From Heliocidaris erythrogramma (lineage: Eukaryota; Echinodermata; Echinoidea; Camarodonta; Echinometridae): a stretch of DNA of 64,000 nt. Below the pieces are notes generated by a model, which worked only from the letters and a program-made list of their open reading frames with translations, was not told where the DNA came from and ran no database searches. The first letter of the stretch is position 1. Each line of letters begins with the position of its first letter. Both the position numbers and the translations under genes were made by a program. Positions 25,842 to 54,947 of this stretch are shown one piece after another. The stretch covers positions 310,001 through 374,000 of the forward strand of contig CM046864.1 of assembly GCA_025617745.1 (NCBI GenBank). The letters run 5' to 3'.

Positions 25842-26134
25842 TTGTAGGATGAAAAGCGATGACTGGGAAACCCTCTTGCTAGTTGTCAGATATTATTAAT
25901 TATACAAATTTGAAATTGTATACCTGTCCTCGAGAAAATTAATTAAACTTAATCAATCTGGGTGTATAAGCAAGTATGTTTCACAGACATGTTCAATTTG
26001 GTTGTTAATATTGCCATTAAACTGCAATTTTCAGAGCTCATGAATATCCATGTACTATTGTATTTGCGCTCCATTGCAATTGACTCTATCAAGAAAAAGG
26101 AGATAGAAACAGACATCATCAATTTGGGTGGTAT

Positions 26135-26309
26135 ACAGTGGTGGTTGAAGGGGCACATCTGGATAGTGCCCCCCCCCCACCCCACCGAGCGAGTTTCCGA
26201 GAGCTGGCGAGACCAAAGAAATACGGGTCTGACTTTTCCAAAAAGTTGACAAACCTGCATTTGTGCCCCCCCCCCCCCCCTTATCAAAATACTGACTCCG
26301 CCCCTGGTG
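26135..26309. mobile_element. Poly-C hAT-like MITE in LRR unit
   Basis: A short element with CAGTGG-type and CCGCCCCTG-type ends and two internal poly-C runs, inserted within a unit of the array. It is the same family as 27568-27774 but more diverged. Confidence 0.5.
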
Positions 26310-27083
26310 TATAAGCAAGTATATTTCACAGACATATTCAATTTGGTTGTTAATGTGGCCATTGAACTGCAATTTTCAGAGCTCCTGAATACTTCCATAT
26401 ATCTATTGTATTAGACGTTCTATTGCTCCCTCTACCCATCCTGCTTTGTTTTTTTCTTCATCTTCTTTAAAATTTGATTAGATTTTTATTAAAAATGTTT
26501 AGATGGCAAGAGAATGACTAGGAACCCCCTCTTACTTAGTATGAGTGACCAGTCGTTGCCAGATAAAGTAGTTATGACATTGAAGTTGTATACCTTTCTT
26601 ATGAAATGAAAAGAATTAGCTCCATCAAGAGAAGGAGATGGAAAGAACCCCATTAAATCTGGGAGTAATAAAAGCAAGTAAATTTCACGACTTATTCAAT
26701 TGGTAATTTTTGTCATTGAATTGCACATTCAGGGTCCCTATATAGTAGATGTGAATGGTAGCTGCGGGGTAAAATGAAAAAAACAAAAACAAAAACAGTG
26801 GAGCCGTACCTTGTCCTCGTTATTTCTTACTATGACACCAAAATATATATTATTTGGCCTTTAAATTAGATTTTGTCTAAATCCGGCCTAAAACAAATCC
26901 AAAATCAGTCGGGATCTAACATTGCAATGCTTTCAGAGGTACAATATTGATGTAGATAATGCTATATATCGCAGGAGATTTCTTCCTACGTTAATTAATG
27001 CATGGAATGACATACCTTTCCTTATTTTTTTTCTCTTTGTATTGATTGTTGTTTCAATTTTCCCTCTGTTTTTATGTACGTAG

Positions 27084-27156
27084 AGAATTAAATGGTAACC
27101 AGATTCAGTCTCTCATCCCAGGAATCTTTCAATGGATTATGCAGTCTCTGGAGTCT
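27084..27156 (+). pseudogene. LRR exon 1 (frameshifted, 73 nt)
   Basis: Flanked by TACGTAG and GTAAGT. It reads E-L-NGNQIQSLIPG, then an extra T in ATCTTTCAATGG shifts the frame. Without that base it would end NGL-C-SL-WS-L. The odd length means inclusion would disrupt the reading frame. Confidence 0.8.
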
Positions 27157-27567
27157 GTAAGTATGGAAATGACGTATGGCTATGGAGTTACACGTGCAAT
27201 GAAATGAATGGACTCTATCCATTAGAAGGAGACAAAACAGACTTAATCAATCTGGGTGTATAAGCATTAGATTTTAACGAAAATTGTAGGATGAAAAGCG
27301 ATGACTGGAAACCCATCTTGATAGTTGTCAGATATTATTAATTATACAAATTTGAAATTGTAATACCTGTCCTCGAGAAAATTAATTAAACTGGTGTATA
27401 AGCAAGTATGTTTCACAGACATGTTCAATTTGGTTGTTAATATTGCCATTAAACTGCAATTTTCAGAGCTCAGAATATCCATGTACTGTTGTATTTGGCG
27501 CTCCATTTGCAATTGACTCTGTCAAGAAAAAGGAGATAGAAACAGACTTCATCAATTTGGGTGTATA

Positions 27568-27774
27568 CAGTGGTGGATCAAGGGGGCACATCCGGATCGT
27601 GCCCCCCCCCCCACTCCCCCCCCCCCCCCCTTCGAAGAAAAGTATGCATTTTGACCATAAAGGATCTAAGGATCTGCCATTTTTTTTCGATTGTACGGGT
27701 CTGACTTTTCCAAAAGTTGACAAACCTGCATTTGTGCCCCCCCCCCCCTTATACAAAATCCGATTCCGCCCCTG
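27568..27774. mobile_element. Poly-C hAT-like MITE
   Basis: Begins CAGTGGTGGATCAAGG and ends CCGCCCCTG (inverted-repeat relation CAGKGGYGGA). It is flanked by GTGTATA on the left and a near-identical GTGTAATA on the right, a 7-8 bp duplication as in hAT elements. It carries two poly-C runs and a GCATTTTGACCATAAAGGATC core. Related copies: about 26135-26309, 29048-29200, 31800-32310, 32690-32732 and 42015-42138. Confidence 0.6.
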
Positions 27775-28556
27775 GTGTAATAAGCAAGTATGTTTCACAG
27801 ACATATTCAATTTGGTTGTTAATGTTGCCATTGAACTGCAATTTTCAGAGCTCCTGAATACTTCCATGTACCTATTGTATTAGACGTTCCATTGCTCCCT
27901 CTACCCATCCTGCTTTGTTTTTTCTTCATCTTCTTTTAAAATTTGATTAGATTTTTATTAAAAATATTTAGATGGCAAGAGAATGACTAGGAACCCTCTC
28001 TTACTTAGTATAGTGACCAGTCGTTTCCAGATAAAGTAGTTATGAAATTTCAAGTTGTATACCTGTTCTTATGAAATGAAATGAATTAGCTCCATCAAGA
28101 AGAAGGAGATGGAAACAACCCTATTAAATCTGGTGTATAAAAAGCATGTAAATTTCACGGACTTATTCAATAGGTAATTTATATTGTCATTGAATTACAC
28201 AATTCAGGGTCCCTATATAGTAAGATGTGAATGGTAGCTGCCGGGGAAAATGAAAAATAAAAACAAAAAAAACAAAACAGTGGAGCCGTACACTTGTCCT
28301 CGTTATTTCTTGCTATGACTATATTATTTACCTTTTTTAACGAGATTTTTGTCTGAATCCGCCTGAAACCAAATCCAAAATAATGGGGATCTATACATTG
28401 CCTGCTTTCAGAGGTACAATATTAACGTAGATAATGTTATATATCGTAGGAGACTTCTCCTTACGTTAATTAATTCATGGAATGAATACCTTTCCTTATT
28501 TTTTTCCTCTTTGTATTGATTGTTGTTTCAATTTTCCTTTGCTTTTATGTACGTAG

Positions 28557-28628
28557 ATATTTAAATGGTAACCAGATTCAGTCTCTCATCCCAGGAATCT
28601 TCAATGGATTAGACAGTCTCCGGAGTCT
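28557..28628 (+). CDS. LRR exon 2
   Basis: 72 nt between TACGTAG and GTAAGT, phase 2 at both ends. One 24-residue LRR: Y-LNGNQIQSLIPGIFNGL, then D-SL-RS-L. Open frame with Leu, Asn and Phe at the LRR consensus positions. Confidence 0.8.
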
Positions 28629-29047
28629 GTAAGTATTGTAATGAGGTATGGAGTTACACGTGCAATGAAATGAATGGACTCTTTCCATTAGAAGGAGATT
28701 GAAACAGACTTAATCAATCTGGGTGTATAAGCATTAGATTTTAACGAAAATTGTAGGATGAAAAGCGGATGACTGGGAAACCCCTCTTTCTAGTTGTCAG
28801 ATATTATTAATTATACAAATTTGAATTTGTATACCTGTCCTCGAGAAAATTAATTAAACTTAATCAATCTGGGTGTATAGCAAGTATGTTTCACAGACAT
28901 GTTCAATTTGGTTGTTAATATTGCCATTAAACTGCAATTTTCAGAGCTTCATGAATATCCATATACTATTGTATTTGGCGCTCCATTGCAATTCACGCTA
29001 TCAAGAAAAAGGAAATAGAAACAGACTTCATCAATTTGGGTGTATAC

Positions 29048-29200
29048 AGTGGTGGATCAAGGGGGGCACATCCGGATCGTGCCCCCCCCCCCCCTTCGAA
29101 GAAAAGTATGCATTTTGACCATAAAGGATCTAAGGATCTGCCATTTTTTTCGATTGTGCCCCCCCCCCCCCTTATACAAAATCCTAACTCCGCCCCTGCT
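29048..29200. mobile_element. Poly-C hAT-like MITE
   Basis: CAGTGGTGGATCAAGGGG to CCGCCCCTG, with two poly-C runs. A close relative of 27568-27774, in the same position of the next unit, so it may have been duplicated with the unit rather than inserted separately. Confidence 0.6.
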
Positions 29201-29646
29201 GTATAAGCAAGTATTTCTCAGACATATTCACTTTTGTTGTTAATGTTGCCATTGAACTGCAATTTTCAGAGCTCCTGAATACTTCCATGTACCTATTGTA
29301 TTAGACGTTTCATTGCTCTCTCTACCCATCCTGCTTTGTTTTTTCTTCATCATCTTTTAAAATTTGATTAGATTTTTATATTAAAATGTTTAGATGGCAA
29401 GAGAATGACTAGGAACCCTCTCTTACTTACTTAGTATGAGTGACCAGTCGTTGCCAGATAAAGTAGTTATGAAATTTCAAGTTGTATACCAGTTCCTATG
29501 AAATGAAATGAATTAGCTCCATCAAGAAAAGGAGATGGAAACAACCCTATTAAATCTGGGAGTAAAAAGCAAGTAAATTTCACGGACTTATCCAATCGGT
29601 AATTTATATTGTCATTGAAGTACACATTCAGAATCTCTATATAGTA

Positions 29647-31313
29647 CACTGTTAAAAAATATGTGGGTATTTTTACAGGAAATTTCCTGCAGTCGAAACG
29701 CCAGGAGTGCACGTTATTTTACAGCCTCATGTAAAACTACAGTCTGTAAAAAATATTTCCCTTTTTTTTTTGTAAATTTAAAATAATCTGTAGTTAGTCT
29801 CAAGGAAAGCCAAAAAGTCTGTATTTTTACAGTTATTAGTGTATAGCCATGCTTTATGTTATCCTATTCTAGTTAATTCGTGTGTGTGTGTGTGTAATTG
29901 GGTTTTTAACAGACGTGTATCAATCATATAAGATGTAAGATTATTTAAACGTCTGGGACCCACCTTTAACGTCACCATCCGAAAGTCGTAACTCAGTTCT
30001 CGAACCTGGGTCCGCTGAATCAGTTTATAATTTCCACTGGTAGCTACATTACAGGCGCACGCGTTTTGTTTTGTTTTGTTTAAAGGCTTATGCAGTCAAT
30101 TATGACTATTTAAATGTGTTGTTGTTGGAGCATGATGGCGCTCTTCAATCTTCATAGATTATCTGCGCCACTGACGATCCATATACTTACTTGGCCTCAT
30201 GTCCACTTTGTTGAGGTGGGTTCGCTTTCCCGGCCAATGTCTTCGGGTTTGAACTGGCTCACCTGCCTCTGCGAAGTGTTTCCCATCAAACTTTCGTATA
30301 AAAAATAATGAGGATAATGACGAGTCGAATTCTTTTTTATATATTTTTTTCCGATTTATTGCACTATATTATAAGGTACAATTATAATATACGCATGTCC
30401 ATGGGCTATACGTGTGTGTTGTGTGTGTAATTGGGTTTTTACAGACGTGTATCAATCAGATATGATTATTACGTCTGGGACCGACCTTTAAACGTCACCA
30501 TCCGAAAGACGTGACTCAGTCTCGAACCTGGGTCCGCTGAATCAGTTTACAACTTCCACTGTAGCTGGATTACAGGCGCACGCCACAACGCCCAGTTGTA
30601 TACTGTGTAATTGGCTTTTACAGACGTGATCAATCAGATATGATTATTTACGTCTGGACCGACCTTTAACGTCACCATCCGAAAGACGTGACTCAGTCTC
30701 GAACCTGGGTCCGCTGAATCAGTTTATAACTTCCACTGGTAGCTGGATTACAGGCGCACGCCACAACGCCCAGTTGTATACGTGTGTGTGTGTATTGGGT
30801 TTTTACAGACGTGTATCAATCAGATATGATTATTTACGTCTGGGACCGACCTTTAACGTCACCATCCGAAAGACGGACTCAGTTTCGAACCTGGGTCCGC
30901 TGAATCAGTTTATAACTTCCACTGGTAGCTGGATTACAGGCGCACGCCACAACGCCCAGTTTGATACGTTTGTATACGTTTAATGCAATCTTTTATATGC
31001 ACCTTATAGTTTTTTTTATTCCTTTTGTGACAGTTACTAAATCGGGCAACCCCAAACCATAACGCCTACTTAAAATTCATGAATATTCATATGAGTGTTT
31101 TCCCACATATTGGTAATTTAACAGGGTAACTTTTTAAAATATGAGCCAATGTTTTTTTAACGGTGTTTTTTAATTGAAAATAAATGCTGATTTCCGGTAA
31201 ACCAACAAACTTCTGTTGTTCTACAGGATAAAGCCTGTAAAATTGAAATGACGGCAATAACTTGTAATTCCAGGGCCAGGAAACCTGTAGTTTTACAGTT
31301 ATTTTTTACAGTG
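29647..31313. mobile_element. DNA element with CACTG ends and TA target
   Basis: The left end CACTGTTAAAAAATA and right end TATTTTTTACAGTG are inverted and flanked by TA (29645-29646, 31314-31315). Sister units show the empty site ATAGTAGATGTGAATGG (for example about 33399-33415). It is 1667 bp with no transposase seen; TA duplication suggests Tc1/mariner-type mobilisation. The interior carries four 7SL/Alu-like repeat units. Confidence 0.8.
29880..30966 (-). repeat. Tandem 7SL/Alu-like units
   Basis: Four copies with heads at about 29991-30063, 30514-30597, 30691-30775 and 30877-30960 (spacing 177 and 186 for the last three). On the minus strand each reads GGGCGTTGTGGCGTGCGCCTG, then TGTAATCCAGCTAC, then GGACCCAGGTTCGAGACTGAG. 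This matches the order and spacing of the 7SL RNA Alu domain and Alu-type A box (GTGGCG.GCGCC) and B box (GGTTCGAGACT), about 47 nt apart. The rest holds ACGTTAAAGGTCGGTCCC and a (GT)n run. First copy lacks the 5'-most bases. It could instead be a tRNA-like SINE head; the TGTAATCC motif favours 7SL. Confidence 0.6.
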
Positions 31314-31638
31314 TAGATGTGAATGGTAGCTGCCAGGGAAAATGATAATACACTGAGCCATACACTTGTCCTCGTTATTTCTTATTGTGCCACAAAAACA
31401 TATATTATTTAGCCTTTGAAATTAGATTTTTGTCTAAATCCGGCCTGAAAACAAATCCAAAATCAGTCGAGATCTACATTGCCCTGCTTTCAGAGCTACA
31501 ATGGATGTAGATAATGCTATACATCGTAGAGAATTCTTCTTATGTTTATTAATGCATGGAATGACATATCTATCCTTATTTTTTTCCCTCTTTGTATTGA
31601 TTGTTGTTTCTATTTTCCCTCTGTTTTTTTCTACGTAG

Positions 31639-31709
31639 AGAATTAAATGGTAACCAGATTCAGTCTCTCATCCCAGGAATCTTCAATGGATTAAGCAGTC
31701 TCCGGGTCT
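31639..31709 (+). pseudogene. LRR exon 3 (frameshifted, 71 nt)
   Basis: Same boundaries as its sisters, first residue E. A base is missing in CTCCGGGTCT near the 3' end (sister: CTCCGGAGTCT), so it is 71 nt and would shift the frame downstream. Confidence 0.78.
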
Positions 31710-31799
31710 GTAAGTATTGTAATGAGGTATGACTATGGAGTTACACGTGTACTGAAATCAATTGACTCTATCCATTAGAAGGAGATAGAAACAGACTTA

Positions 31800-32310
31800 A
31801 TCAATTTTGGGGAGGGGGGGGGGGTGGCACATCCGGATTACCCCCCCCCCCCCCCTTTGGAAGGAAAGTATGCATTTTTACCATAAACACTATGAACATG
31901 ACGAATAAAGAAGCGGACAATTTATGCAGCTCCTCATTGTACCCTTCGAAATTGCACTGGTTAACAAAAGAACATCTATTCATTGCTATCCTGCAAAAAT
32001 ATGTAGAACAGGTGTCACATAATAGCAGTGAAGGGATGTCCTTTTGTCTAATAGAGCTATTGTGTAATTGTCCGCTCTCTTTGTCATCGTGTTCATAGTG
32101 AAAGGATCTGCCCCTTTTTGGAATGTGCCCCCCCCCCCCCTTTTAGAATGAAAACTTTTTTTTATAACTGGACCCCATAACCACCCCCCCCCCCCCCCCC
32201 CCCCCCCGTGAACGAATTTTTTAGAGCTGGCAAGACCAAAGAAATAGGGTCGAAGTTGATTAACCTGCATTCGTGTCCCCCCCCCCATACAAAATCCTGG
32301 ATCCGCCCCT
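31800..32310. mobile_element. Poly-C hAT-like MITE split by a foldback MITE
   Basis: Poly-G and poly-C runs at about 31810-31822, 31840-31854, 32128-32140 and 32183-32207, with CATAAAGGATC-type core interrupted at 31888-32100. It ends near GGATCCGCCCCT. A longer or compound member of the family at 27568-27774; borders approximate. Confidence 0.5.
31888..32100. mobile_element. Foldback MITE, family CACTATGAAC, copy 2
   Basis: 213 bp from CACTATGAACATGA to GTTCATAGTG, flanked by AAA (31885-31887, 32101-32103). The empty site ACCATAAAGGATCT is readable at about 29118-29131. Internally related to 16302-16554 (GTAGAACAGGTG, AATGAAGGGAT words). Confidence 0.85.
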
Positions 32311-33739
32311 TTTTTATAAGCAAGTATGTTTCACAGACTTTTGGTTGTTAATATTGCCATTGAACTGAATTTCCAGAGCTCCTGAATACTTCCGTATATT
32401 ATTGTATTTGACGTTCCATTGCTCCTTCTACCCATCCTGCTTTGTTTTTTCTTAGTCCTCTTTTAAACTTTGACTAGATTTGTATTAAAAATGTTTAGAT
32501 GACAAGAGAATGACCAGGAACCCTCTCTTACTTATTATCAGTGCCTAGTCGTTGCCAGATAAAATGGTTATGAAATTTCAAGTTGTATACCTGTCCTTGT
32601 GAAATGAAATGAATTAGCTCCATGAGGAAGAAGGGGATGGAAACAAGCCTATTAAATCTGGGTGTATAAAAAGTTGACAACCTGCATTTGTGCCCCCCAC
32701 CCCCCTTATACAAAATCCTGGCTCCGCCCTGGTGTATAAGCAAGTATGTTTCACAGACATATTCAATTTGGTTGTTAATGTTGCCATTAAACTGCAATTT
32801 TCAGAGCTCCTGAATACTTCCATGTACCTATTTTATTAGACGTTCCATTGCTCCCTCTGCCCATCCTGCTTTGTTTTTTTTTTCTTCATCTTCTTTTAAA
32901 ATTTGATTAGATTTTTATTAAAAATGTTTAGATGGCAAGAGAATGACTAGGAACCCTCTCTTACTTAGTGACCAGTCGTTGCCAGATAAAGTAGTTATGA
33001 AATTTGAAGTTGTATACCTGTTCTTATGAAATGAAATGAATTAGCTCCATCAAGAAGAAGGAGATGGAAACAACCCTATTAAATCTGGGAGTATAAAAGC
33101 AAGTAAATTTCACGCACTTATCCAATCGTAATTTATATTGTCATTGAAGTACACATTCAGAGTCTCTATAATTTTTATAGTACTGTTTATCAGTGACTAG
33201 TCGTTCCCAGATAAAATGGTTATAACATTTCAAGTTGTATACCTGTCCTTGTGAAATGAAATGAATTAGCTCCATCAGGAAGAAGGGGATGGAAACAAGC
33301 CTATTAAATCTGGGTGTATAAAAAGCAAGTAAATTTCACGGACTTTTTCAGTTGGTAATTTATATTGTCATTGAATTACACATTCAGGGTCCCTATATAG
33401 TAGATGTGAATGGTAGCTGCCGAGGAAAATGAGAGAGAAAAAAAAACATTGGAACCGTACACTTCTCTTCGTTATTTCTTATTATGACACAAAAATATAT
33501 ATTATTTAGCCTTTGAAATTAGATTTTTGTCTAAATCCGGTCTCAAAACAAATACAAAGTCAACCGGGATCTATACATTGCCCTGCTTTCAGAGGTACAA
33601 TATTAATGTAGATAATGCTATACATCGTAGGAGACTCTTCTTACGTTAATTAATGCATGGAATGACATACCTTTCCTTATTTTTTTCTCTCTTTGTATTG
33701 ATTGTTGTTTCAATTTCCCCTCTGTTTTTATGTACGTAG

Positions 33740-33811
33740 ATATTTAAATGGTAACCAGATTCAGTCTCTCATCCCAGGAATCTTCAATGGATTAGGCAGT
33801 CTCCATTACCT
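33740..33811 (+). CDS. LRR exon 4
   Basis: 72 nt, phase 2. Y-LNGNQIQSLIPGIFNGL, G-SL-HY-L. The donor is GTGAGT rather than GTAAGT, still consensus. Confidence 0.8.
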
Positions 33812-34764
33812 GTGAGTATTGTAAATAGGTATGACTATGGAGTTACACGTGCTATGAAATCAATTGACTCTATCCATTAGAAGGAGATAGAAACAGACTT
33901 AATCAATTTGGGTGTATAAGGAAGTATGTTTCACAGACATGTTCAATTTGGTTGTTAATATTGCCAACTGCAATTTTCAGAGCTCCTGAATACTTCCATG
34001 TACTTAGATGGCAAGAGAATGACTAGGAACCCTCTTACTTAGTATGAGTGACTAGTCGTTGCCAGGTAAAATGGTTATGAAATGTGTAAGTTGTATACCT
34101 GTCCTTGTGAAATGAAATGAATTAGCTCCATCAAGAAGAGGGAGATGGATACAACCCTATTAAATCTGGGTGTATAAAAAGAAAGTAAATTTCACGGACT
34201 TATTCAATCTTACTTATTATGAGTGACTAGTTGTTGCCAGACAAAATTTTGAAATTAGAAGTTGTATACCTGTCCTTGTGAAATCATATCAATTAGCTCC
34301 ATCAAGAAGAAGGAGATGGAAACAACCCTATTAAATCTGGGTGTATAAAGAGCAAGTAAATTTCACAGACTTATTCAGTTGGCAATTTATATTGCCATTC
34401 ACTCTGTTGAATTACACATTCAGAGTCCCTGCATAGTAGGTGTGAATGGTAGCTGCCGGAAAATGATTTAAAAAACACTGGAGCCGTGCACCTGTTCTCG
34501 TTATTTCTTATTATGACACAAAAATATGTCATTTAGCACTTAAAAATAGATTTTTGTCTAAATCCAGCGTGAAAACAAATCCAAAATCAGTCGGGATCTA
34601 CATTGCCCTACTTTCAGAGGTAAAATATTGATGTAAATAATGATAATACATCGTAGGAGACTTCTTCTTATGTTCATTGCATGGAATGACATACCTTTCC
34701 TTATTTTTTTTTCCTCTTTGTATTGATTGTTGTTTCAACTTTTCCTCTGTTTTTATGTACGTAG

Positions 34765-34836
34765 ATATTTAAATGGTAACCAGATTCAATCTCTCATCCC
34801 CGGAAATTTCGATGAATTACGTAGTCTCGAGTACCT
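34765..34836 (+). CDS. LRR exon 5 (NFD variant)
   Basis: 72 nt, phase 2. Y-LNGNQIQSLIPG-NFDEL-R-SL-EY-L. It differs from most sisters also in the central part (NFDEL instead of IFNGL) and is closest to exon 12. The surrounding intron shares GATGTAAATAATGAT with the unit split at 43670/53745. Confidence 0.8.
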
Positions 34837-35721
34837 GTAAGTATTGTAATGAGGTATGACTTATGGAGTTACACGTGAAATGAAATCAATTGACTCTATC
34901 AAGTAGAATGAGATAAAAAGAGACTATCAATTTGGGTGTTTAAGCAAGTATGTTTCACAGACATATTTAAATTGGTTGTTAATATTGCCATTGATCTGCA
35001 ATGTTCAAAGCGCCTGAATACTTCGATGTAGTATTGTATTTGCCGTTCCACTGCTCCTCCTACCCATCCTGCTTTGTTTTTTCTTTGTCTTCTTTTAAAC
35101 TTTGGTTAGATTTGCATTAAAAATGTTTAGATGGCAAGAGAATGACTAGGAACCCTCTCTTACTTAGTATGAGTGACTAGTCGCTGCCAGATAAAATGGT
35201 TCTGAAATTTCAAGTTGTATACCTGTCCTTGTGAAATGAAATGAATTAGCTCCATGAGGAAGAAGGGGATGGAAACAAGCCTATTAAATCTGGGTGTATA
35301 AAGAGCAAGTAAATTTCACAGACTTATTCAGTTGGTAATTTATATTGTCATTGAATTACACATTCAGAGTCCCTGCATAGTAGGTGTGAATGGTAGCTGC
35401 CGAGGAAAATGATAAAAAAAAAAAACATTGGAACCGTACACTTGTCCTCGTTATTTCTTATTATGACGCAAAAATGTATATTATTTAGCCTTTGAAATTA
35501 AACTTTTGTCTAAATCCGGCCTGAAAACAAATCTAAAAATCAATCGGGATCTATACATTGCCCTGCTTTCATAGGTACAATATTGATGTAGATAATGCTA
35601 TACATCGTAGGAGACTTCTTCTTACGTTAATTAAAGCATGGAATGACATATCTTTCTTTAGTTTTTTCCCCTCTTTGTATTAATTGTTGTTTCAATTTTC
35701 CATCTGTTTTTATGTACGTAG

Positions 35722-40150: not shown

Positions 40151-40172
40151 TGTTCCTACTTGTTAGACTATT

Positions 40173-43250: not shown

Positions 43251-46200
43251 TATTAAATCTGGGTGTATAAAGAGCAAGTTAATTTCACAGAATTATTCAG
43301 TTGGCAATTTATATTGCCATTCACTCTGTTGAATTACACATGAATTAGCTCCATCAGGAAGAAGGGGATGGAAACAAGCCTATTAAATCTGGGTGTATAA
43401 AGAGCAAGTAAATTTCACGGACTTATTCAGTTGGTAATTTATATTGTCATTGAATTACACATTCAGAGTCCCTGCATAGTAGGTGTGAATGGTAGCTGCC
43501 GGGAAAATGATTTAAAAAACACTGGAGCCGCGCACCTGTCCTCGTTATTTCTTATTATGACACAAAAATATGTCATTTAGCACTTGAAAATAGATTTTTG
43601 TCTAAATCCAGCGTGAAAACAAATCCAAAATCAGTCGGGATCTACATTGCCCTGTTTTCAGAGGTAAAATATTTGTTTCTCTTTTTTTTTCCCCCTTTTA
43701 TTTTTTCATCTCCAACAAAATACAAATCATGATATACAATCAATCAGCAGCATAAATATTTAGAAAAAAATAATTAGTCATTGTATCACAAGGAACATAC
43801 AGAAATATAATGTATTATGTAACACAAATATGGAAATTCTTAACAAAATTAACATAACGCCTTGATCTATATTGTGTGGAAATGGAGAGGTCCACTAAAA
43901 AGCGATGCTTGTATTTTGTGGACCCCTCAATTAATAATAGCAAGTAAAACATGAATATTTTATAAAACAAGAAAATTTGTGGCCAACAGAGACATCGATC
44001 TAGTGTAAATTAGTTATCGGAAAATAGGTGCAAAATTAATTTAAAAATGAAATGATATCGTCAAGGGAACAAGAGTAAGGAAATAATAGGGGAGGAGGAG
44101 AAAATAGGCACAGTGCAGGCTGCATATGGTTCGGAGATAAGTTGGAAAAAGTAGTGAATCTAAATAAGGGAGTGCAAAATGACGATTAAGATTTCAAATC
44201 AATAAATAAAGCAGATGATGATGAGTTTTAAAGACGATTATAAGACTTGAGTAAAAAGGTTTTCAATTTTCTTTTAAAAATGTTGAGGGCGGGGAATTTT
44301 TTAAGTCGTGGTCCAAGTTATTCCCAAATTTTGGACCTTCATAAATGAATGTATTTTTAGCAGTGAATGTTCTCAAGAGAGGCAAATGATATTCATCCGA
44401 ATGTATTGTCGGATATTTATGAATTGTTTGATTCTTAAAAAAACATGTCGTGAAAAACAGAAGGAAGAACTCCACTGTTGTATTTATACATACATTGGCC
44501 CAAGTGAAATAGATATAAATCCTTAATTTTAAGTATATTATTTTCAAACAATAAGGGGGAAGTATGTGAACGTATATGCGCATTACAAACAATACGAATA
44601 ACCTTTTTTTGTTGAAGTAAAACTCAATTTCATACAGTTTGATGTGTGTTACCCCAGATCAATAAACCATAATTCAAGTAAGGCAAAATAAGTGACGAGT
44701 AAAGCATTAATAATGATGGCTGTGGGAGGGACGATTTTAGTCTATTCATAATGCCAATATTACGCGAAACAATTTTGCAAACGTTATCAATGTGTAGTTT
44801 CCATGAAAGTTTATCGTCAACAATTATACCCAAGAATTTTGTATGACTGACCTGTTTCAGCGGGGTTTTATCAAATAAAATATCAGAAGGCAATATATCC
44901 AAAGAATTACTAAATAACATACAATTAGTTTTTTTCGAGATTAAGTGATAATTTATTTGCTTTTATCCATTGTAATACATTGCATAACTCAATATTGATT
45001 GTATCTACCAGGACATTTGGATCGTTATGTGAAAAGAATAGATTTGTATCGTCGGCAAATAAAATAAATGACAGGGAGGTGGATGATTTATGGAAATCAT
45101 TAATATAGAGAACAAATAATAAAGGGCCTAGAAGACTTCCTTGTGGGACGCCGCAAGTAATATGACGCAACTCAGATGTATGTTCTTTTAAAAAAACGTA
45201 TTGCTTTCTGTTGAACAGCTAGCTCCTGAACCACTCCAAGGCCTTCCCACGTATACCATAATGGTTGAGTTTACTAAGTAAAATCTCATGATTTATCGTG
45301 TCAAAAGCCTTGGAGAAATCCAGGAATATACCTATTGTGTGAGACGATAGATCAGTTGCATGAGCAACTTTATCAACAAAAGACATTAAAGCATGTACAG
45401 TACTGTGCTTCTCACGAAAGCCGAACTGGAAATTTGAAAAGATATCACATTTATTTAAAAAAGAAATCATGCGAGTGTAGACTATCTTTTCAAGAACCTT
45501 TGAAAACGTAGACAGTAAAGAGATAATTGCCAACATCTATCTTATTACCTTTTTTGAATAGTGGAATGATTTTCGCGACTTTCATGGCATTAGGAAACTG
45601 CCCATGTAATAGTGACAAATTACATATTATGTGAACCAATGGATCGACAATGTAAGGAATTATAGATTTAAGAATTTTATTATTTATCTCATCATATCCC
45701 GAACTAATCTTATTTTCCAAATCAGAAATAATTTTCAAAATTTCTTGTTTGTTTGTTGGAAGCAAAAAAATAGAATACAACATTTTATTAACATCAGATC
45801 TATTATTGACCAAGTTCATTGCTTGTTTAATTATTTTCCATGTATTTTGCATATCGTTTTTGAAAAATTTCAAACGATTTACGAAATATTTTTTCTTCTC
45901 TAACCGAATAATTTTCGTCAATATGTTTTTATAATTAGTATATTTTCGTTTGGATTGTTCAGTGCGTGTTATTTTATGTTTATAATAAAGATTATTCTTC
46001 CGATTTATTGATCGCAATATTGATCTAGAAATCCAAGGAAGTTTAGGAGTTTTTCTATAATTTGTTTTTATTTTGGTAGGTAAGTGTTTAATTGATCATG
46101 AAGTATACTAGACAATTTATATGAGCTATTAACTTCATCCTTGGAATAAATATTGGACCAGTCGATATTTTCAAGACTGATTCCAAGACGTGCTAAATTG

Positions 46201-47246
46201 TCTGGTGTTACTTTGCGTCTGTAAGTACTGGTATCAATGCTATTCGCAGACTGGCCAACTGATATTGCGTCAATATGGGATAGTGGTCGGTTGCATCCGA
46301 AAGAATGATAGAAGAATCGGAATGCGGTAAAACATTAGAAAAAATGTTGTCTATTAATGTGGCAGATCCATTTATAATACGGGTTGGTTTGGAAATGAGT
46401 GGCAAGAAAGAGGCAGATAACATTGCTTCAAGACATTATTTATTTATTTATTTCTGATATTTATACAGGGTGACTCATTATCACCAATATTGGTGGTCTT
46501 CCATGAGGCCCTGATAGCAATAGTAAGTAACAATAATAGCCAACAAAATCATGAAAATAAACTCATAACCAAAAAAAAAAACAAGAACAAACATAAATAT
46601 ATATATATACATGTATATACAAAGAATATGGTATCCTCGTAATCAAAATTGGTTTTACGAAAATATTGAAATTGTTGCACATTCCTATCATCTTAATTCA
46701 TAATGTATAGACGGTGATATTTTCAAAAATCTGATTGAAAAATAACCATTTATATATGGGTTATTTTGAAATGGCATTGTATAATTTTGAAAGTACATAC
46801 AAGAAGTATAAAGACTACTTTAGCTCAGTATAGAAACAAAATTGTTATATACATATTTACAAAACATATTATAGGGTAGTATACTTATTCAAAGATTACA
46901 CAATGATTGCATGTAATATAGTATAACAATCGAATGTACAGTGTCTCTTATGAAACAATAAAATGCAAATTATTTATTGATTATAAATGATATGAAATCA
47001 TTCATACATTTTGAAAAGCATTATGTCATCGTCCATTTTTGGGCAAAGAAACATATTTTCCAAATCAGGGCAACAAAAAATGACATATTACTGATGAAGA
47101 CAAATATAAAATAGCATCAAGTGAAATTTTCTAGCAATAACAATGAATATGACTCATTTACCATGCTGTTATGTAAACGAATCAAACCAATCCTTTGCGA
47201 TAAGGAATGAGAGTAAAACTTCAGCTAAGAAACTGAATAAAATTTC

Positions 47247-48713
47247 TTATTGCGAACAGATTTTGCAAGATCTTTTGAACATATAATTAAATGTGTTCAC
47301 AGAGCTTGCCATTTTTAGTGATCTGTCCAACTGATTCCATGCTATAATTGAAGATAAGAGGGGGCTATGTTTAAAGCATTCTGTTTTATACTTTGGCACA
47401 GAAAGTAAACCTTCATCTGCCTGCCTCGTATGATACTGATGAATGTCACTTACTTTAACTAAACTTTCTTGTAAATAGGATGGTGCCAAATTGTGTGTAC
47501 ACTTGAACATCATAGTAACACGCTGAAATTCAAATCGTTTCTCAATTGGCATCCATTTCAGATTGCTAATTAATTCACTTGATGGAGTCTCATAACTTTT
47601 GTTTGAAATTATTCTAGCAGCTCGTTTTTGAACTTTCTGAAGCTTATACGTTTGTTCCTGATATCGATTTGACCACACAGAGGAACAATAATCAAAGTGA
47701 GGCAACACTAGTGCATTATACAGCATCTTTAAAGATGTTAATGGTAAATAATCCTTCGCTCGTTTTATTACACTGACATTTCTCTGCGTTACCTTTGTTA
47801 CTTTGTCAACGTGTTTGGACCAATTCAATTCTTCATCAATTAATATACCAAGACATTTGGCGACATTAACTCTTTTCAATACCTTTCCATTTATAGAAAC
47901 ATTGAAGGATGTTATTTTGTTTAAATTAGCACGCGAAGCTATGACCATCACGCATGTCTTCTCCGTGTTTAGTACAAGGCGGTTTTGATTAATCCATACC
48001 ATTAATTCTTCCAATGCGAAAGAAAGTTTTTCTTCAACCTCAGCTACGCTACTTCCACTCACAGTTAAAGTGGTATCGTCCGCATACATATCAACATAAC
48101 CATCAGATATACAATTTGGTAAAGTATTTACATAGATGGAAAATAATAACGGACCCAAAATAGACCCCTGTGGTACGCCCATCAATACAGTTAATGGATT
48201 AGATTTTGCACCTTTAAAATGAACAGACTGTTCACGACCTGTTAAATAAGATCTGAACCAGTTTACACATTCATGTGAACATCCGATAGCAGATAACTTT
48301 TCTAATAAAAGATTGTGATCAACTGTGTCAAATGCTTTACGAAGGTCTATGAAAGCGACTCCAGAGATCTGTCTGTTTTCAATGTTCCATGACAAATTAT
48401 TAACAAATTTCATGAGTGCTGTTGCGGTAGAATGCTTTGCTCGAAAACCAGACTGACTGGAGTTCAATATATTATTATCGTCAATGAATTCAGAAAGTTG
48501 GCGATGTACAGCCCTCTCTATGATTTTGCTAACAACAGACAAAATTGAAATTGGGCGGTAATTGCTTGGATCGGACATATTACCAGCTTTAAAAATTGGA
48601 ATTACTCGAGCTTCTTTCCAACCCTTGGGTACACATCCGTGGTCAAAGATGCATTTATGATATCGGTTAACGATCTCGCTATCACCTGTTTCGTCATTTT
48701 TAGAAGACGACAA
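47247..48713 (-). CDS. LINE-B reverse transcriptase part of ORF2
   Basis: 488 residues containing the RT palm: GWKEARVIPIFKAG (residues 31-44), NYRPISILS (51-59), FIDLRKAFDT (121-130), GVPQGSILGPLLF (179-191) and the catalytic YADD at 210-213, followed by a thumb with KCLGILIDEELNW and LYNALVLPHFDYCSSVW. The enzyme primes cDNA synthesis at a nick made by its endonuclease. The first Met is probably not the native start: the frame continues the upstream endonuclease ORF through a one-base deletion near 48650 in a CCACGGATGTG stretch. All catalytic residues are present. Confidence 0.88.
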   Translation of the reverse strand: MSSSKNDETGDSEIVNRYHKCIFDHGCVPKGWKEARVIPIFKAGNMSDPSNYRPISILSVVSKIIERAVHRQLSEFIDDNNILNSSQSGFRAKHSTATALMKFVNNLSWNIENRQISGVAFIDLRKAFDTVDHNLLLEKLSAIGCSHECVNWFRSYLTGREQSVHFKGAKSNPLTVLMGVPQGSILGPLLFSIYVNTLPNCISDGYVDMYADDTTLTVSGSSVAEVEEKLSFALEELMVWINQNRLVLNTEKTCVMVIASRANLNKITSFNVSINGKVLKRVNVAKCLGILIDEELNWSKHVDKVTKVTQRNVSVIKRAKDYLPLTSLKMLYNALVLPHFDYCSSVWSNRYQEQTYKLQKVQKRAARIISNKSYETPSSELISNLKWMPIEKRFEFQRVTMMFKCTHNLAPSYLQESLVKVSDIHQYHTRQADEGLLSVPKYKTECFKHSPLLSSIIAWNQLDRSLKMASSVNTFNYMFKRSCKICSQ

Positions 48714-50353
48714 GAAATGTGGTCATCGCCAGTAGCTTTATCTTTACACATGCGATCAATTTCCTTAATTACGAAATCCTCAGACACACAGTCCAAATCA
48801 AATTGTGAGATATGATTAATCGGAGTATCGTCACCGATAGATTCAGTTCTAGAACTTTTCAGGTTTTTTGTTATATTGGCAGCACAGGTAGTAAAAAAGC
48901 TATTGAAAGCATTAGCTATTTTAGTTGGATCTGATATACGAGCACCATCAATTTCCAAACTATGCGGCGATATCTTGCTGGATTTTGGAATTACACGTTT
49001 CAGACACTTCCATATATTCCGAGAATTTCCATGATTTTCTTCAATAAAGTTACAATGGTATTCTTTCTTCCTTTTTCTAATTAGATGTGTAACTTTATTC
49101 TTAAGGGATTTGTAATTATTCCATAACTCATCGTCTTTTGTAAGAATAGCAGCTCTGTGAACATGGTCACGTTGTTTCATTAAATGAACAATATCGTCCG
49201 TTATCCATGGACAAGCATTTTTACGAATTCGCTTGTGGCATAACGGAATGTGCTTGTTCACGACCTTGAAAAATAGATGTTCCCAGGTTTTCCAGGCAAC
49301 ATCAACGTTTCTAATATCTTTGAAAACATGCCAAGGCATAGTTTTTAAATCATCAAGAAACCTTTCTTGATCAAAATTCTTGAATGAACGAAATTCAAAA
49401 GAGGTGGGATTATTTCTTTTACTAAAATTGAAGGATTTTACTGCATATACGAAAAAATGATCGCTAATACTAGTGTGACAAACCCCTGCTTCACGGTAGA
49501 GCTCAGGATCGGAAACAAATATAAGATCAATTATAGTACTCGAGCTGTTAGTAACTCGAGTTGGGCTGTTGATCAGTTGACTAAAACCATATAGCTTTGA
49601 GTAGTATTCTAGTTTATTGGTGTTAGAGTCAGCTAGATTAGGCATATAATTGCAGTTAAAGTCGCCTAGTAAGATGCAACTTTTGTTAACAGAGCTGGCC
49701 AACTCAAGATTAGAATCAAGTTTATCGAAGAATTCGGTTGTCGCATTAGGTGGCCTATAAAAAGCTCCAATCAGAATAGGCGGTTTATGTGGATAATGAA
49801 GTTCAACCCACAAACATTCTAAATCTTGATGACATAAATCATCTCTCCTCCTGTAGTCAAATCTTTTAGAAATAAAAACAGCAACTCCTCCACCATACCT
49901 ATTTCTATCTTTTCTTAGTAATATAAAATCATCCAAACATACTTCGGAGTCAATTATAGTATTGTAACATAGAGTCTCACTGAGTGCCATAACATCAAAA
50001 GGTGAATTCTTCAATATCAATTTCAATTCATCAATTTTCGAGGTAAGACTATGAATATTTAGATGAGCAAACTTAATTCCTCTACTTTTGATTAAAGGTA
50101 TTGAGCCATTCTCTAACAGTACCGACTTATTTGGAAAATTCGGAACCACATCATCATCATCATTTATAATTTCAGTGCTATTTGCAGGTTGTGGTAATCC
50201 TTCTGTATAGCTATCACAAGTTTCTTGTTTAGACTCTCTATTGACAATACTTTGACAATTATTCAGTTTATGACTTTCACTGATAATGTAATTATACGTA
50301 TTGGTGATTATCCGTTGAGTACCATCCTTACGAATTGCAGGTATTCGTGCCAC
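48602..50353 (-). CDS. LINE-B endonuclease and linker part of ORF2
   Basis: 583 residues with an APE-type endonuclease at about 94-305: LNIHS (98-102), SETL (125-128), GGGVAVFI (154-161), GAFYRPPN (196-203), GDFN (230-233) and SDHF (297-300). A basic linker (about 380-460) leads toward the RT. The last 15 or so residues are out of frame, after a one-base deletion; the true product would run on into the RT frame, as the 112-nt overlap of the two frames shows. Confidence 0.88.
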   Translation of the reverse strand: MARIPAIRKDGTQRIITNTYNYIISESHKLNNCQSIVNRESKQETCDSYTEGLPQPANSTEIINDDDDVVPNFPNKSVLLENGSIPLIKSRGIKFAHLNIHSLTSKIDELKLILKNSPFDVMALSETLCYNTIIDSEVCLDDFILLRKDRNRYGGGVAVFISKRFDYRRRDDLCHQDLECLWVELHYPHKPPILIGAFYRPPNATTEFFDKLDSNLELASSVNKSCILLGDFNCNYMPNLADSNTNKLEYYSKLYGFSQLINSPTRVTNSSSTIIDLIFVSDPELYREAGVCHTSISDHFFVYAVKSFNFSKRNNPTSFEFRSFKNFDQERFLDDLKTMPWHVFKDIRNVDVAWKTWEHLFFKVVNKHIPLCHKRIRKNACPWITDDIVHLMKQRDHVHRAAILTKDDELWNNYKSLKNKVTHLIRKRKKEYHCNFIEENHGNSRNIWKCLKRVIPKSSKISPHSLEIDGARISDPTKIANAFNSFFTTCAANITKNLKSSRTESIGDDTPINHISQFDLDCVSEDFVIKEIDRMCKDKATGDDHISCRLLKMTKQVIARSLTDIINASLTTDVYPRVGKKLE

Positions 50354-51150
50354 TCCTGTCTGGTAGGTTTCAGTCGGGCTTTGTTGGACGTTGTGGAGAA
50401 ATCCAGCCCTTCTGCTCTTTCTTCAGCCGAAGAAAGAGCAGTGTTTCTTGGGAAACACTGCAATGCTCATGTTTCAACAAGTCAACATTAAACCTCCCAT
50501 CAAAAAAATTGTTTTGTTGTTATGATTAACATTACGCAATAAATCAGCTAAATATAATAAAAAGTCATGAGCGTTAGAGCTGGGTGATCGGTAAATAACA
50601 CCAGCAATAATGTTCTTATTACCAGGGATTGAAATTTCAACAAAAAGGGATTCAATTATATTATTGCATACTGATATATTATCTAAGACTGAGTAATTTA
50701 AATTTCTTAATATATATAAAGCAACACCACCGCCGCGTCTATCTTGTCTATTTTTATGTATAAAGTCATAATTGTCAATAAGGAATGGGTGGCTGCAATC
50801 GTGACTCAGCCAGGTTTCTGTTAAACCAATTATTGTTAGTGGATTTTGGGATTGTGTGTTTATAAGAGAAAGTAAGTCATCAAAATGCCTGTTCAAACTT
50901 CTAATATTTAAATGAAGGAGAGAAAATGTGTTAAAATTAAATTCTTTCAAAATATTGGAAAATTTATTGATAGTTACATATTTAGTGACATTTCTTTGAG
51001 CTGGATCGTCAAAGTCAAAATCAATTTCTAGTTCTTTGAATGAAGAATTAATGTTATCCATAATAAGATCATCATAAGATTTATGAGATGAATTATTTTC
51101 ATCCGTAAGGATGGGTCTGTGTAATCTGAAAAAAATCATCATCGTCTAAC

Positions 51151-52776
51151 AAATGGAAGGGCAGTAGCTGCATATTGTGTGAACTTGCCATCATGAAGTG
51201 TGAATCATAATCTGAACATGGTGAGCCGCTGGTATAAAAAGCTTAAAGAAACAAAGTTTGGCGCTGTCAAGGAAAGAATGGAAAAGAAAGCTCTAGAAAG
51301 GGAATCCCAAACCCTGTTCATACTTGAGGTATGACTCAAAGATATTAGAATATACATAGATTTGGTAATTACGAAAATATATGAAACCCATGATGTTTTT
51401 CCTTTTTTTTCCCCCCTTCTTTTTCTTACCATTTGAACCACGTCTCTTAGGCAGATTAAATTACAGTACGTGGACAAAATTGAAAATTGGAAAGAGTACA
51501 ATTTTTTTTGAACTCATGAACTAAGTAAATTATAGCCGCTTACTAAAAATATGCACTATAGCTCTTTTGCATGTACCCTGATTCATGTATTACGATATTT
51601 TAGAATGCATATATAGTGTGAGTTCTGGAAAGATATTGCAATTAAAAAAAGACATATAAAAGACCATTATGAGGCAAGTCATTTTGAGCTCTTTTAGTAA
51701 AGTCGGGTACTCATTATGTTTTTCCATTATAGGTATGAGTTCATATTGAAAATCATAATGAAACCGTGATAAAATGAACATTCGGTCATAAGATGAGGCC
51801 CATGATTTATGGCTCTATTGAATAATCGCTAAATATAAGCAATGCCAAAAGTAGATAATGAAAGCATACATTAATAAGCCAAAAGATTGAAGACACTTTC
51901 TAGCAGTCAAATAACATGAAGGGAAACACTCCTATACTTCTGCATAGGCCTAACCCTAACCAGAGCCTCAGCAGAGGACCTAAACTGAGTTTGCGATTAC
52001 TGTTTTCTAAAATATGACATAAAGGGGAAATATATATTCAAAATAAGGCCAATATCTTCACTTTCCTTGAGAGTTTGCATTTTATAAAACGATAATGCTA
52101 TGTTTATTGAAATTTTAAAATTCCAAGAATATATACTTCGATCTAGATATGCAGTATGAACTTCCTTCACCAGCAATGTCAAGTCAAGGAAACAGAATGC
52201 TTTCTTTTTAAAACCAAACAGTGGGAATCAGTTATTCACAATTCTTTTCATAACTTAGTATAAAACAGGACCTGTGGTGTTTACAAGCCATGTTTATGTT
52301 TTCAAGACAGTAACATTCATTTCAGAATCAATTCTACTTCAGTTTGCATAGCATGGTAATAAATGGTGCCAATTATGACTGCAAGACTTAGCTTGCAAAA
52401 CAGTAATCATGTCAAAATTTATTCTGAGTTAAGGCCAAAATTAAAATACATAGAATGATGCAAGTAATTGTAAATTCTTTGCTTACTGATCATGTGTGAC
52501 TGATGTTGACCTATCTTGGATGGTAAATTGGGACTATCACTAGCTATAGTTGTCATGGCTGTTACATCATGATCTTGTAGAACCTGGAAGAGATTGTATA
52601 GGTGGTAGACACGTTCATAAAATCAATGGAGGTACATGATTATGGCAATCGCGATGAAAGCGAAGCTAAAAGACTCGGGAGAAGAATTTGGTTTAAAATA
52701 AAACTTTACACACCCAGTCTGATTGAGGCGATCCATTTCTAGCTGGTTGTCGGGTCTGAAGAAGTACCTTTATCCC
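51151..52776. other. Unassigned stretch inside the 10-kb insertion
   Basis: AT-rich, with no long ORF and no repeat that I can match elsewhere in the window. It may be the 5' UTR of LINE-A or part of another insertion. Confidence 0.4.
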
Positions 52777-53733
52777 ATTAAAGATCACATTGCAAGAAAA
52801 TTCCATCAAAATAAATATTGGCTTAATACTTATTATTGCATAGATGGCATAAATTATACAAGGCTATCCAAATTCAAAGCTTGGAAACATTTGAATTAAT
52901 AATTGTTATCAATTATAAAACGGTAAAATACAGCCCCCGATATAGCAGCTGAAGAGCTCCTTGAACGCTGCTGAGATGTGTGACGACACACGACGGTCCA
53001 GTCCTGTCTAAGCAGACGATGTCCCATAACATCTTACACATTTTTCAGTGCCTGTTTTGTCATCTCCTCTTCACTTATTTCTCTTACTTGACTAGCGTCA
53101 GTCTTAATGTTAGTCTGTTGCCTCACTCTTAAGTTCGTGTATGGTATTATTTTGATGAAAAATGCAGCGTTAAAAAAATAAAGGAACCAGTCACTCGTAA
53201 ACAAAATAAGACGCCATTGTATTTTCAGCTGCTTGCACCGGGGCATGTTCGGCGTTTCAAGAGGGAACGAATACAATCTGTGATATTATTCGGAGGGCTT
53301 TTCAATTTGAAAATGGGGTTTATTTCATTGATCATTGACCCTTCTCCTGTGTATTTACAATCAAACGGTTTTAGTTATCAGAATCACTTTCACTTTCCCT
53401 TTTAGAATGGTGTGAAATAAGGTCATGTTAAATATACCAAACTCTTTATAATTTGATAAATAATTGCATTGCAATTACGTTCATTCATTATAGGACGTCG
53501 TCTGCTTAAGAAGGATCGATCCCTAGTGTGACGACATCAAAACATCGCTATATTTCTGGCGAATCCTCGGATATTCCAGATGCTTAGAAGAGCTTTTATT
53601 TATGTTGTTTTTATAATCATCAGATACGCAGTTGACATAAAACTTATACGATTGCCATCTGTAAGCTTCCCAGTTTCTAGTGATACATTAATTGCCATAT
53701 TTGTGATTTTCTTGCAATGTGATCTTTAATGCG
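52777..53733. mobile_element. Possible non-autonomous TIR element
   Basis: CATTAAAGATCACATTGCAAG at the left is inverted at the right (CTTGCAATGTGATCTTTAATG). Inner segments are also inverted imperfectly: TAAGCAGACGATGTCC near 53010 and GGACGTCGTCTGCTTA near 53490. No target duplication or transposase found. Confidence 0.6.
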
Positions 53734-53863
53734 GATTCTAGTTGCTATTGATGTAAATAATGATATACATCGTAGTAGACTTCTTCTTGTGTTCATTGCA
53801 TGGAATGACATACCTTTCCTTATTTTTTTCCTCTTTGTATTGATTGTTGTTTTATGTACGTAG

Positions 53864-53935
53864 ATATTTAAATGGTAACCAGATTCAGTCTCTCACCCCC
53901 GGAAATTTCGATGGATTGCGTAGTCTCGAGTACCT
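53864..53935 (+). CDS. LRR exon 12 (NFD variant)
   Basis: 72 nt, phase 2. Y-LNGNQIQSL-T-PG-NFDGL-R-SL-EY-L. Closest to exon 5. It belongs to the unit split by the 10-kb insertion and keeps canonical splice sites. Confidence 0.8.
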
Positions 53936-54796
53936 GTAAGTATTGTAATGAGGTATGACTTATAGAGTTACACGTGCAATGAAATCAATTGACTCTATCA
54001 AGTAGAAGGAGATAGAAAGAGGCTTAATCAATTTGGGTGTATAAGCAAGTATGTTTCACAGACATATTCAATTTGGTTGTTAATATTGCCATTGATCTGC
54101 AATTTTCAAAGCGCCTGAATACTTCGATGTACTATTGTATTTGACGTTCCACTGCTTCCTCTACCCTTCCTGCTTTGTTTTTCTTTGTCTTCTTTTAAAC
54201 TTTGATTAGATTTGTATTAAAAATGCTTAGATGACAAGAAAATGAATAGGAACCCTCTCTTACTTAGTACGAGTGACTAGTCGTTGCCAGATGAAATGGC
54301 TATGAAATTTCAAGTTGTATACCTGTCCTTGTGAAATGAATTGAAGTAGCTCCATCAAGAAGAAGGAGATGGAAACAACCCTATTAAATCTGTGTGTATA
54401 AAAAGCAAGTAAATTTCACGGACCTATTCAATTGGTAATTTATATTGTCATTGACTTACATATTCAGCATGTTCAGAGTCCCTGCATAGTATGTGTGAAT
54501 GGTAGCTGCTGGGGAAAATGATAAAAAACAGTGGAGCCGTACACCTATGTCCTATACCATTTAGCCTTTGAAAATAGATTTTTGTCCAAATCCGGCCTGA
54601 AAACAAATCCAAAATCAATCGGGATCTACATTGCCCTGCTTTCAGAGGTACAATATTGATGTAGATAATGCTATACATCGTAGGAGATTTCTTCTTACTT
54701 TAATTAATGCATGGAATGACATATCTATCCTCAGTTTTTTTTTCCCTCTTTGTATTGATTGTTGTTTCAATTTTCCCTCTGTTTATATGTACGTAG

Positions 54797-54868
54797 ATAT
54801 TTAGATGGTAACCAGATTCAGTCTCTCATCCCAGGAATCTTCAATGGATTAGGCAGTCTCCGGCACCT
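54797..54868 (+). CDS. LRR exon 13
   Basis: 72 nt, phase 2. Y-L-D-GNQIQSLIPGIFNGL, G-SL-RH-L. It is the only copy with Asp in place of the first Asn of NGN. Last exon of the array; unit homology ends at about 54947. Confidence 0.8.
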
Positions 54869-54947
54869 GTAAGTATTGTAATGAGGTATGACTATGGAGT
54901 TACACGTGCAATGAAATGAATTGACTCTATCAAGAAGAAGGAGATTA

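Follow-up and report, generated by a model that had tools for sequence, protein, structure and literature searches.

Receptors of the LGR group of G-protein-coupled receptors (GPCRs), RXFP1 among them, are encoded by leucine-rich repeat (LRR) exons for the ectodomain that feed one seven-transmembrane (7TM) exon. LGR genes use 72-nt phase-2 LRR exons, and a paralogue on chromosome C17 shows that layout in the genome analysed here, that of the sea urchin Heliocidaris erythrogramma (GCA_025617745.1; 1.06 Gb in 26 contigs). A match to Bindin, an echinoid protein, at E 2.1e-68 marks the genome as that of a sea urchin. The window, meaning the whole 64,000-nt stretch under study, was C12:310001-374000 (C12 being contig CM046864.1) and contains a tandem array of LRR exons, termed cassettes, upstream of a 7TM exon whose best match is RXFP1. 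Unlike in the known LGR genes, these LRR exons have been amplified to near-identical cassettes with hypervariable codons, and an LDLa exon was not found in the stretches scanned. The cassettes are probably the variable ectodomain part of an LGR-like rhodopsin-family GPCR, the sequences pointing to a germline repertoire produced by duplication, conversion and selection.

Ambulacrarians studied previously were reported to have one orthologue each of the LGR3, LGR4 and GRL101 types (Veenstra 2021, PMC8286064); the 7TM protein search made here returned 128 matches, some of which were pieces of one gene. Starfish RXFP/LGR3 receptors are described as responding to relaxin-like peptides (PMC11863921). 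Lamprey variable lymphocyte receptors (VLRs) are also made of LRR modules, with VLRC variability reported predominantly on the concave surface (PMC3900441), and their repeats are similar in sequence to the cassettes. Unlike VLR modules, the sea urchin cassettes are exons with introns in a GPCR gene, and they are known here from one reference genome. VLR2 of the crab Eriocheir sinensis is an invertebrate LRR receptor for which ten isoforms produced by alternative splicing were reported (PMC10045472). Zebrafish NLR-B30.2 genes are described as having one fixed last LRR plus a varying number of others and as lying mostly on one chromosome arm, both of which recall the present genes; positive selection was reported on B30.2 and not on the LRRs (PMC4852459), whereas in the sea urchin genes its signature falls on the LRRs. 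The surreal-GPCRs (PMC7042368) and SpTransformer genes (PMC8634487) are likewise described as large, fast-expanding families of receptor or immune genes in sea urchins; the surreal-GPCR review (PMC7042368) uses neither 'leucine-rich' nor 'LGR'. Literature searches (titles and the beginnings of abstracts, mostly from non-subscription sources, with the original surreal-GPCR paper outside the search) found no description of LRR cassette arrays in sea urchin LGRs among the hits listed. Searches on LRR exon duplication in GPCRs and on LGR phase-2 exons found nothing.

Cassettes and the downstream receptor exon

Thirteen copies of one LRR exon had been claimed for the window, and thirteen were found by nhmmer at 27084-54868 on the plus strand. 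Ten were exactly 72 nt and open, as claimed, and each of these encodes one complete 24-residue LRR; the remaining three (73, 71 and 71 nt) are out of frame, so this part of the original prediction held for ten copies only. The shared phase 2 was recovered at both exon ends, the first base of each exon finishing a split Leu codon (CT before the junction, A after it). The acceptor TACGTAG and the donor GTAAGT, both described as conserved, were each present in 12 of the 13 copies, the exceptions being CACGTAG at 37595 and GTGAGT at 33740. The features of the gene are as follows (window numbering unless C12 is given; the C12 entries lie past the end of the window).

25842..54992, plus strand: repeated intron-exon units bearing the cassettes, starting at a 500-N assembly gap
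27084..27156, plus strand: LRR cassette 1, 73 nt, frame broken
28557..28628, plus strand: LRR cassette 2, 72 nt, YLNGNQIQSLIPGIFNGLDSLRS(L)
31639..31709, plus strand: LRR cassette 3, 71 nt, frame broken
33740..33811, plus strand: LRR cassette 4, 72 nt, donor GTGAGT
34765..34836, plus strand: LRR cassette 5, 72 nt, PGNFDELRSLEY type
35722..35793, plus strand: LRR cassette 6, 72 nt
36671..36742, plus strand: LRR cassette 7, 72 nt
37595..37665, plus strand: LRR cassette 8, 71 nt, frame broken, acceptor CACGTAG
38552..38623, plus strand: LRR cassette 9, 72 nt
39398..39469, plus strand: LRR cassette 10, 72 nt
41792..41863, plus strand: LRR cassette 11, 72 nt
53864..53935, plus strand: LRR cassette 12, 72 nt, PGNFDGLRSLEY type
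54797..54868, plus strand: LRR cassette 13, 72 nt, the last of the array
C12:380816-380887, plus strand: LRR exon NLSS, NLSSNAISRLQTNVFSELQALLV, 72 nt, phase 2
C12:387557-387628, plus strand: LRR exon DLNNN, DLNNNQIPIVDA*AFNGLTKLQYL, splice sites intact, in-frame TAG
C12:388781-388852, plus strand: LRR exon FLLG, FLLGSDLHSLNYHALHNMTSLQT, 72 nt, phase 2
C12:390585-391755, plus strand: 7TM exon, whole domain in one exon

Introns are repeated along with the exons, with a start-to-start spacing of 846-1025 nt in 7 of 12 intervals and 1.5 to 12 kb in the rest. Three joined cassettes matched Pfam LRR_8 at 7.6e-17. A 264-kb region was scanned on both strands for the succession of acceptor, 72 nt, donor and LRR profile. 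This returned the ten intact copies and two of the downstream LRR exons, with nothing else above threshold; one base-shuffled copy of the region gave no hits and the reversed sequence gave three. The 500-N assembly gap (window 25342-25841) adjoins the first repeat unit upstream, and cassettes could be missing there. A LINE-type retroelement lies between cassettes 11 and 12 (window 44263-51145, minus strand), with reverse transcriptase and endonuclease open reading frames (ORFs) identified by Pfam on 47250-50422 and smaller similar ORFs around them.

The cassettes had been compared with exons of LGR-type genes, and the 7TM exon bears this out. It has 409 aa open in its frame and is entered in phase 2 behind a pyrimidine-rich acceptor. 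The domain is of the rhodopsin family (Pfam 7tm_1, 4.8e-34) and its closest PDB sequence is relaxin receptor 1 (9.5e-42), followed by the thyrotropin and FSH receptors; the relaxin, thyrotropin, FSH and LH receptors were all within the ten best. The exons for the extracellular LRRs precede the 7TM exon in the same orientation, an arrangement that at the DNA level is that of LGRs. Its stop codon hid the DLNNN exon from scans for open frames, and only queries with the C17 exons revealed it. As every junction up to the 7TM exon is phase 2, any number of intact cassettes leaves the frame unbroken, in agreement with the expectation that cassettes could be joined in any number. Order, strand and phase suggest that cassettes, three LRR exons and 7TM exon are joined in the mRNA, and the array most likely encodes a GPCR ectodomain built of LRRs. 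Exons of Toll-like receptors were considered and rejected; the genome has many long-ORF LRR genes, but the cassettes lead to a 7TM exon.

Related genes on C12 and other chromosomes

Searches with cassette DNA, in which the best candidates only were scored, listed 41, 40 and 66 matches, all of which fall on C12. A search with the 24-aa cassette (E up to 10, all candidates scored) gave 131 matches, distributed as C12 92, C16 23, C13 7, C17 4, C2 3 and C15 2. E values on C12 were 9.7e-9 to 0.23; matches on other chromosomes were singly weak (0.001 to 4.1; C16 0.012 to 0.63), with six of the seven on C13 lying at the two closest C13 genes. Each of the 92 C12 cassettes listed precedes one of twelve 7TM exons and shares its strand, the assignment being made given those twelve only. 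The twelve genes, lettered A to L, have 12, 7, 3, 7, 12, 7, 11, 15, 1, 8, 7 and 2 cassettes respectively; gene A is that of the window, and one of its out-of-frame copies is absent from the 92-cassette list. The suggestion that cassette number changes by unequal exchange gained support, since 1-15 matched cassettes per paralogous gene together with homogenised introns fit unequal exchange or gene conversion.

The one-strand order cassettes-NLSS-DLNNN-FLLG-7TM was read from the match lists in all twelve genes. The NLSS exon had 14 matches (12 on C12, 2 on C13), the FLLG exon 15 (12 on C12, 2 on C13, 1 on C17) and the DLNNN exon 19, of which 13 belong to the twelve C12 genes (two of them to gene I), 1 is elsewhere on C12, 2 are on C13 and 3 on C16. 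These counts make the 3' exons constant and essentially single copy, and the cassettes variable in number. Eight of the twelve 7TM exons matched end to end in one open frame.

In the 8.9 kb fetched, the 7TM exon of the C17 paralogue is preceded by seven distinct LRR exons, each 72 nt long and in phase 2; four weak cassette matches lie farther upstream. The first of the seven is nearest the cassette (14/24 identical), the fifth NLSS (13/24) and the seventh FLLG (16/24), and the sixth matches DLNNN. This paralogue would represent the ordinary layout, and the cassette arrays seem to be an amplification of the upstream LRRs in an LGR-like gene. The 23 weak matches on C16 (35.77-36.53 Mb) form three groups, each upstream of a same-strand 7TM exon (35.84, 36.14 and 36.63 Mb). 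Judged from match positions alone, a sister subfamily has apparently undergone a second amplification there, independent of the first.

Related 7TM exons, for the most part sharing 47-56% identity with the query, form tight clusters at C9:34.26-34.56, C12:47.5-48.5 and C7:29.49-29.61 Mb and would constitute a large LGR-like expansion, known here from 7TM exons alone. More distant 7TM matches (37-41% identity) with LDLa matches within about 50 kb occur at C12:14.14, C12:40.36, C19:26.01, C5:45.61, C20:4.92 and C6:46.64 Mb. These six loci are candidate GRL101-type genes, a number above the one orthologue reported from other ambulacrarians.

Variation at ligand-facing codons

The x residues of the motif LxxLxLxxN point to the concave face of the LRR fold. 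In exon numbering they are codons 21, 22, 0, 2 and 3; the remaining 18 of 23 codons were treated as framework. Since the junction splits the central Leu codon of the motif, residues 21-22 and residues 0-3 of the next exon share one concave strand. On the canonical LRR fold, the ligand-facing strip would be built jointly by neighbouring exons and, as it spans two of them, exon order would create new strips.

For comparison, 73 cassettes were extracted; they come from the window, from the stretch at 570-630 kb, from portions of the loci at 17.7 and 17.96 Mb and from short fetched pieces, and cover part of the protein-search matches. Cassettes were considered intact if they had 72 nt, a GTAA or GTGA donor and no stop. 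By this definition 64 of the 73 were intact (gene B 7/7, E 11/12, K 7/7). Among the 56 unique intact cassettes, the ratio of nonsynonymous to synonymous difference (pN/pS, Nei-Gojobori) was 2.01 (0.427/0.213) at the five x codons and 0.38 (0.048/0.126) at the other 18. The four highest entropies of the 23 codons belong to codons 21, 22, 0 and 2, so the concentration of variability on the concave strand familiar from VLRs was found for four of the five canonical x residues. Codons 21-22 alone carry 33 different hexamers in the 56 unique exons. In contrast to the cassettes, the constant exon DLNNN has QY at residues 21-22 in the window gene and in 9/9 fetched copies.

Nucleotide diversity in 29 copies with full context was 0.43-0.72 at the six positions of codons 21 and 22. 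In 11 of the 18 framework codons it was zero at positions one and two, but it reached 0.44 in codon 19 (first position) and 0.40 in codon 20 (third position). Intron diversity was 0.075 (+7 to +60), 0.14 (-100 to -21) and 0.32 (+61 to +250, where the alignment is poorer). The contrast between concave and other codons was kept within single arrays (gene D 0.244 vs 0.012, gene E 0.303 vs 0.039, window 0.314 vs 0.078).

Exon and intron divergence were compared in 526 pairs drawn from 36 cassettes with enough flank, stop-bearing copies included. Mean differences were 0.089 for intron, 0.052 for framework and 0.437 for concave positions. Introns had been described as homogenised, and they are alike even between distant loci: 92 of the 526 pairs have less than 5% intron divergence (intron 0.039, framework 0.025, concave 0.40). 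A greedy set of 15 non-overlapping close pairs with less than 12% intron divergence was then used, pairs above 12% being dropped and left uncounted. It contained 65 concave differences against 7.3 expected at the intron rate (nominal Poisson 1e-38, the pairs being incompletely independent owing to conversion), and all 34 changed codons were non-silent, one having changed to a stop. This excess of replacement at concave codons points to selection for diversity. Ligand-facing residues are diversified among the cassettes; selection is the process inferred. That copies differ at ligand-touching residues far more than in the surrounding DNA suggests germline recognition diversity.

Several observations weigh against a selected receptor repertoire as the explanation. 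Codon 3 ranks only ninth in entropy, places five to eight being taken by codons 15, 19, 10 and 18, which are not predicted to face ligand. Among the 15 close pairs, framework and introns differ at the same rate (0.040 each), so that framework constraint rests on pN/pS and the wider comparisons. The close-pair excess is mainly in codons 21 (0.58), 22 (0.53) and 0 (0.22), codon 2 (0.11) being no higher than codons 18-20 (0.11-0.13), and the 12-nt concave set used (codons 21, 22, 0 and 2, codon 3 excluded) was fixed after the variability had been seen. Concave change was zero in the pairs 344765/363864, 17966043/17968879 and 17969828/17975622. Four of the twelve C12 7TM exons are not open in one frame (B, G and H in two pieces; D with stops), and the window gene has three out-of-frame cassettes and an in-frame TAG in DLNNN. 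Pattern scans of C12:210001-474000 for N-terminal exons (LRRNT, LDLa) found none, signal peptides not being searched.

The N-terminal scans, part of a scaffold search that had been proposed and that yielded the signalling (7TM) exon downstream, comprised the following. An LRRNT regular expression gave one match in the 264 kb, spurious by eye, and none in the 60 kb of gene B. An LDLa-like pattern had no match in C12:210001-474000 or C12:570001-630000. Among the 150 LDLa candidates scored, out of 960 genome-wide, none shared the strand of a C12 cassette gene and stood within 200 kb of it on the upstream side; several scored candidates sit near more distant 7TM matches. Upstream exon searches (looser LRR exons; comparison of the gene B and E flanks) found only intron units and other repeats. 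As N-terminal exons were not located at all, the missing LDLa is weak evidence. The genes were filed as LGR-like and not as type C, a distant or unscored LDLa exon being possible.

Competing explanations and implications

An intergenic repeat or an assembly artefact was ruled out by the framework pN/pS of 0.38, the 64 intact cassettes of 73 and the layout at 12 loci.

It is a serious possibility, albeit one we would not favour, that the window locus is a decaying pseudogene within an otherwise live family. The DLNNN codon that reads TAG in the window gene is TAC in 9/9 copies, fetched from eight of the remaining eleven C12 genes (all but F, G and H), three of the 13 window cassettes are out of frame, and a retroelement sits inside the array. 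Conversely, the 7TM exon has an open frame and shares 95% identity with that of gene L, and the ten intact cassettes have a concave diversity resembling that of other arrays. The DLNNN exon with TAG retains its splice sites; it may be skipped, or an assembly error or allelic variation could account for the TAG. Gene E is a better example than the window gene, with 11 of 12 fetched cassettes intact and the 7TM exon open.

Skipping leads to a second explanation, held to be slightly less plausible than the first, in which alternative splicing picks or skips cassettes as in Dscam, giving many isoforms per gene and passing over the out-of-frame and TAG exons. Leaving out an intact cassette or a downstream LRR exon does not disturb the frame, since all of these are symmetric (2-2), and skipping would tolerate the three out-of-frame copies as well as the TAG exon with its intact splice sites. 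LGR LDLa and LRR exons are reported to be sometimes skipped (Veenstra 2021, PMC8286064). The fetched cassettes of other genes are, however, mostly intact (genes B, E and K above), which makes constitutive inclusion equally possible there.

It is unlikely that the diversity is created at the 3' codons by targeted mutation or by conversion of very short tracts, and not by selection alone, but parts of the data are in line with this. Besides showing 33 hexamers, codons 21 and 22, which account for 16.6% of one-step stop routes, hold all five in-frame stops seen among the 69 cassettes that are 72 nt long. The stop copies 36435970 and 37007744, however, are identical in exon sequence and probably go back to a single event, which brings the stops down to four at most (0.0008). 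Synonymous difference is also raised at concave codons (pS 0.213 vs 0.126). Concave difference is 0.40, 0.45, 0.43 and 0.48 at mean intron divergences of 4%, 7%, 12% and 17%, and 0.36 at 21% (three pairs); conversion shuffling old variants would saturate too. The absence of silent changes among the 34 changed codons of the close pairs is hardly expected from mutation alone.

Somatic assembly as in lamprey VLRs is very improbable: five joined cassettes match VLRB 2o6s at 2.1e-37 (an LRRTM entry, ALS, LGR5 and others score higher) and the most variable residues are the expected ligand-facing ones, as described for VLRC (PMC3900441), but most cassettes keep splice sites by which RNA splicing can join them, and no LRRCT or incomplete germline gene was noticed, LRRNT and LRRCT not being searched by profile.

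Other features of the window were an open DDE_Tnp_4 transposase ORF of 504 aa (1817-3328, plus strand), five tandem 201-bp copies with 97% matches (16834-17834) and a satellite with a 144/287-bp period (GGTCAAGGTCAAGGTCATC...) and 91% matches (59091-64000 and beyond the edge). Similar ORFs, which separate the array from the constant exons, go on to about 69.9 kb on the scale of the window.

In the favoured germline model, each gene comprises near-identical 72-nt cassettes in varying number, followed by three LRR exons that are almost always single-copy and by one 7TM exon. Tandem duplication, unequal exchange and gene conversion would keep introns and framework alike and alter cassette number. 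Selection for amino-acid change would diversify the ligand-facing residues, perhaps aided by extra mutation or conversion at those codons. The product would be a germline repertoire of receptors that differ in their binding faces, have a signalling domain of one kind in common and probably receive environmental or microbial cues. A bolder version is improbable as a whole: a VLR-like germline recognition repertoire on GPCRs, with at least 12 genes and interchangeable LRR exons, in which ligand-facing codons are diversified locally (by a mutation hot spot or micro-conversion) and strips run across splice junctions so that array order and splicing multiply diversity.

If the cassettes are expressed as modelled, an animal that lacks antibodies would have a hormone-receptor-like GPCR with a binding face diversified codon by codon. 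Such diversification would be VLR-like, but germline and achieved via exon cassettes. As intron age is decoupled from difference at the binding codons, selection and targeted mutation are experimentally separable. The arrays would offer a sequence-level system for studying recognition diversity made without somatic recombination, and for asking how a peptide-hormone receptor family could turn into a sensory or immune repertoire.

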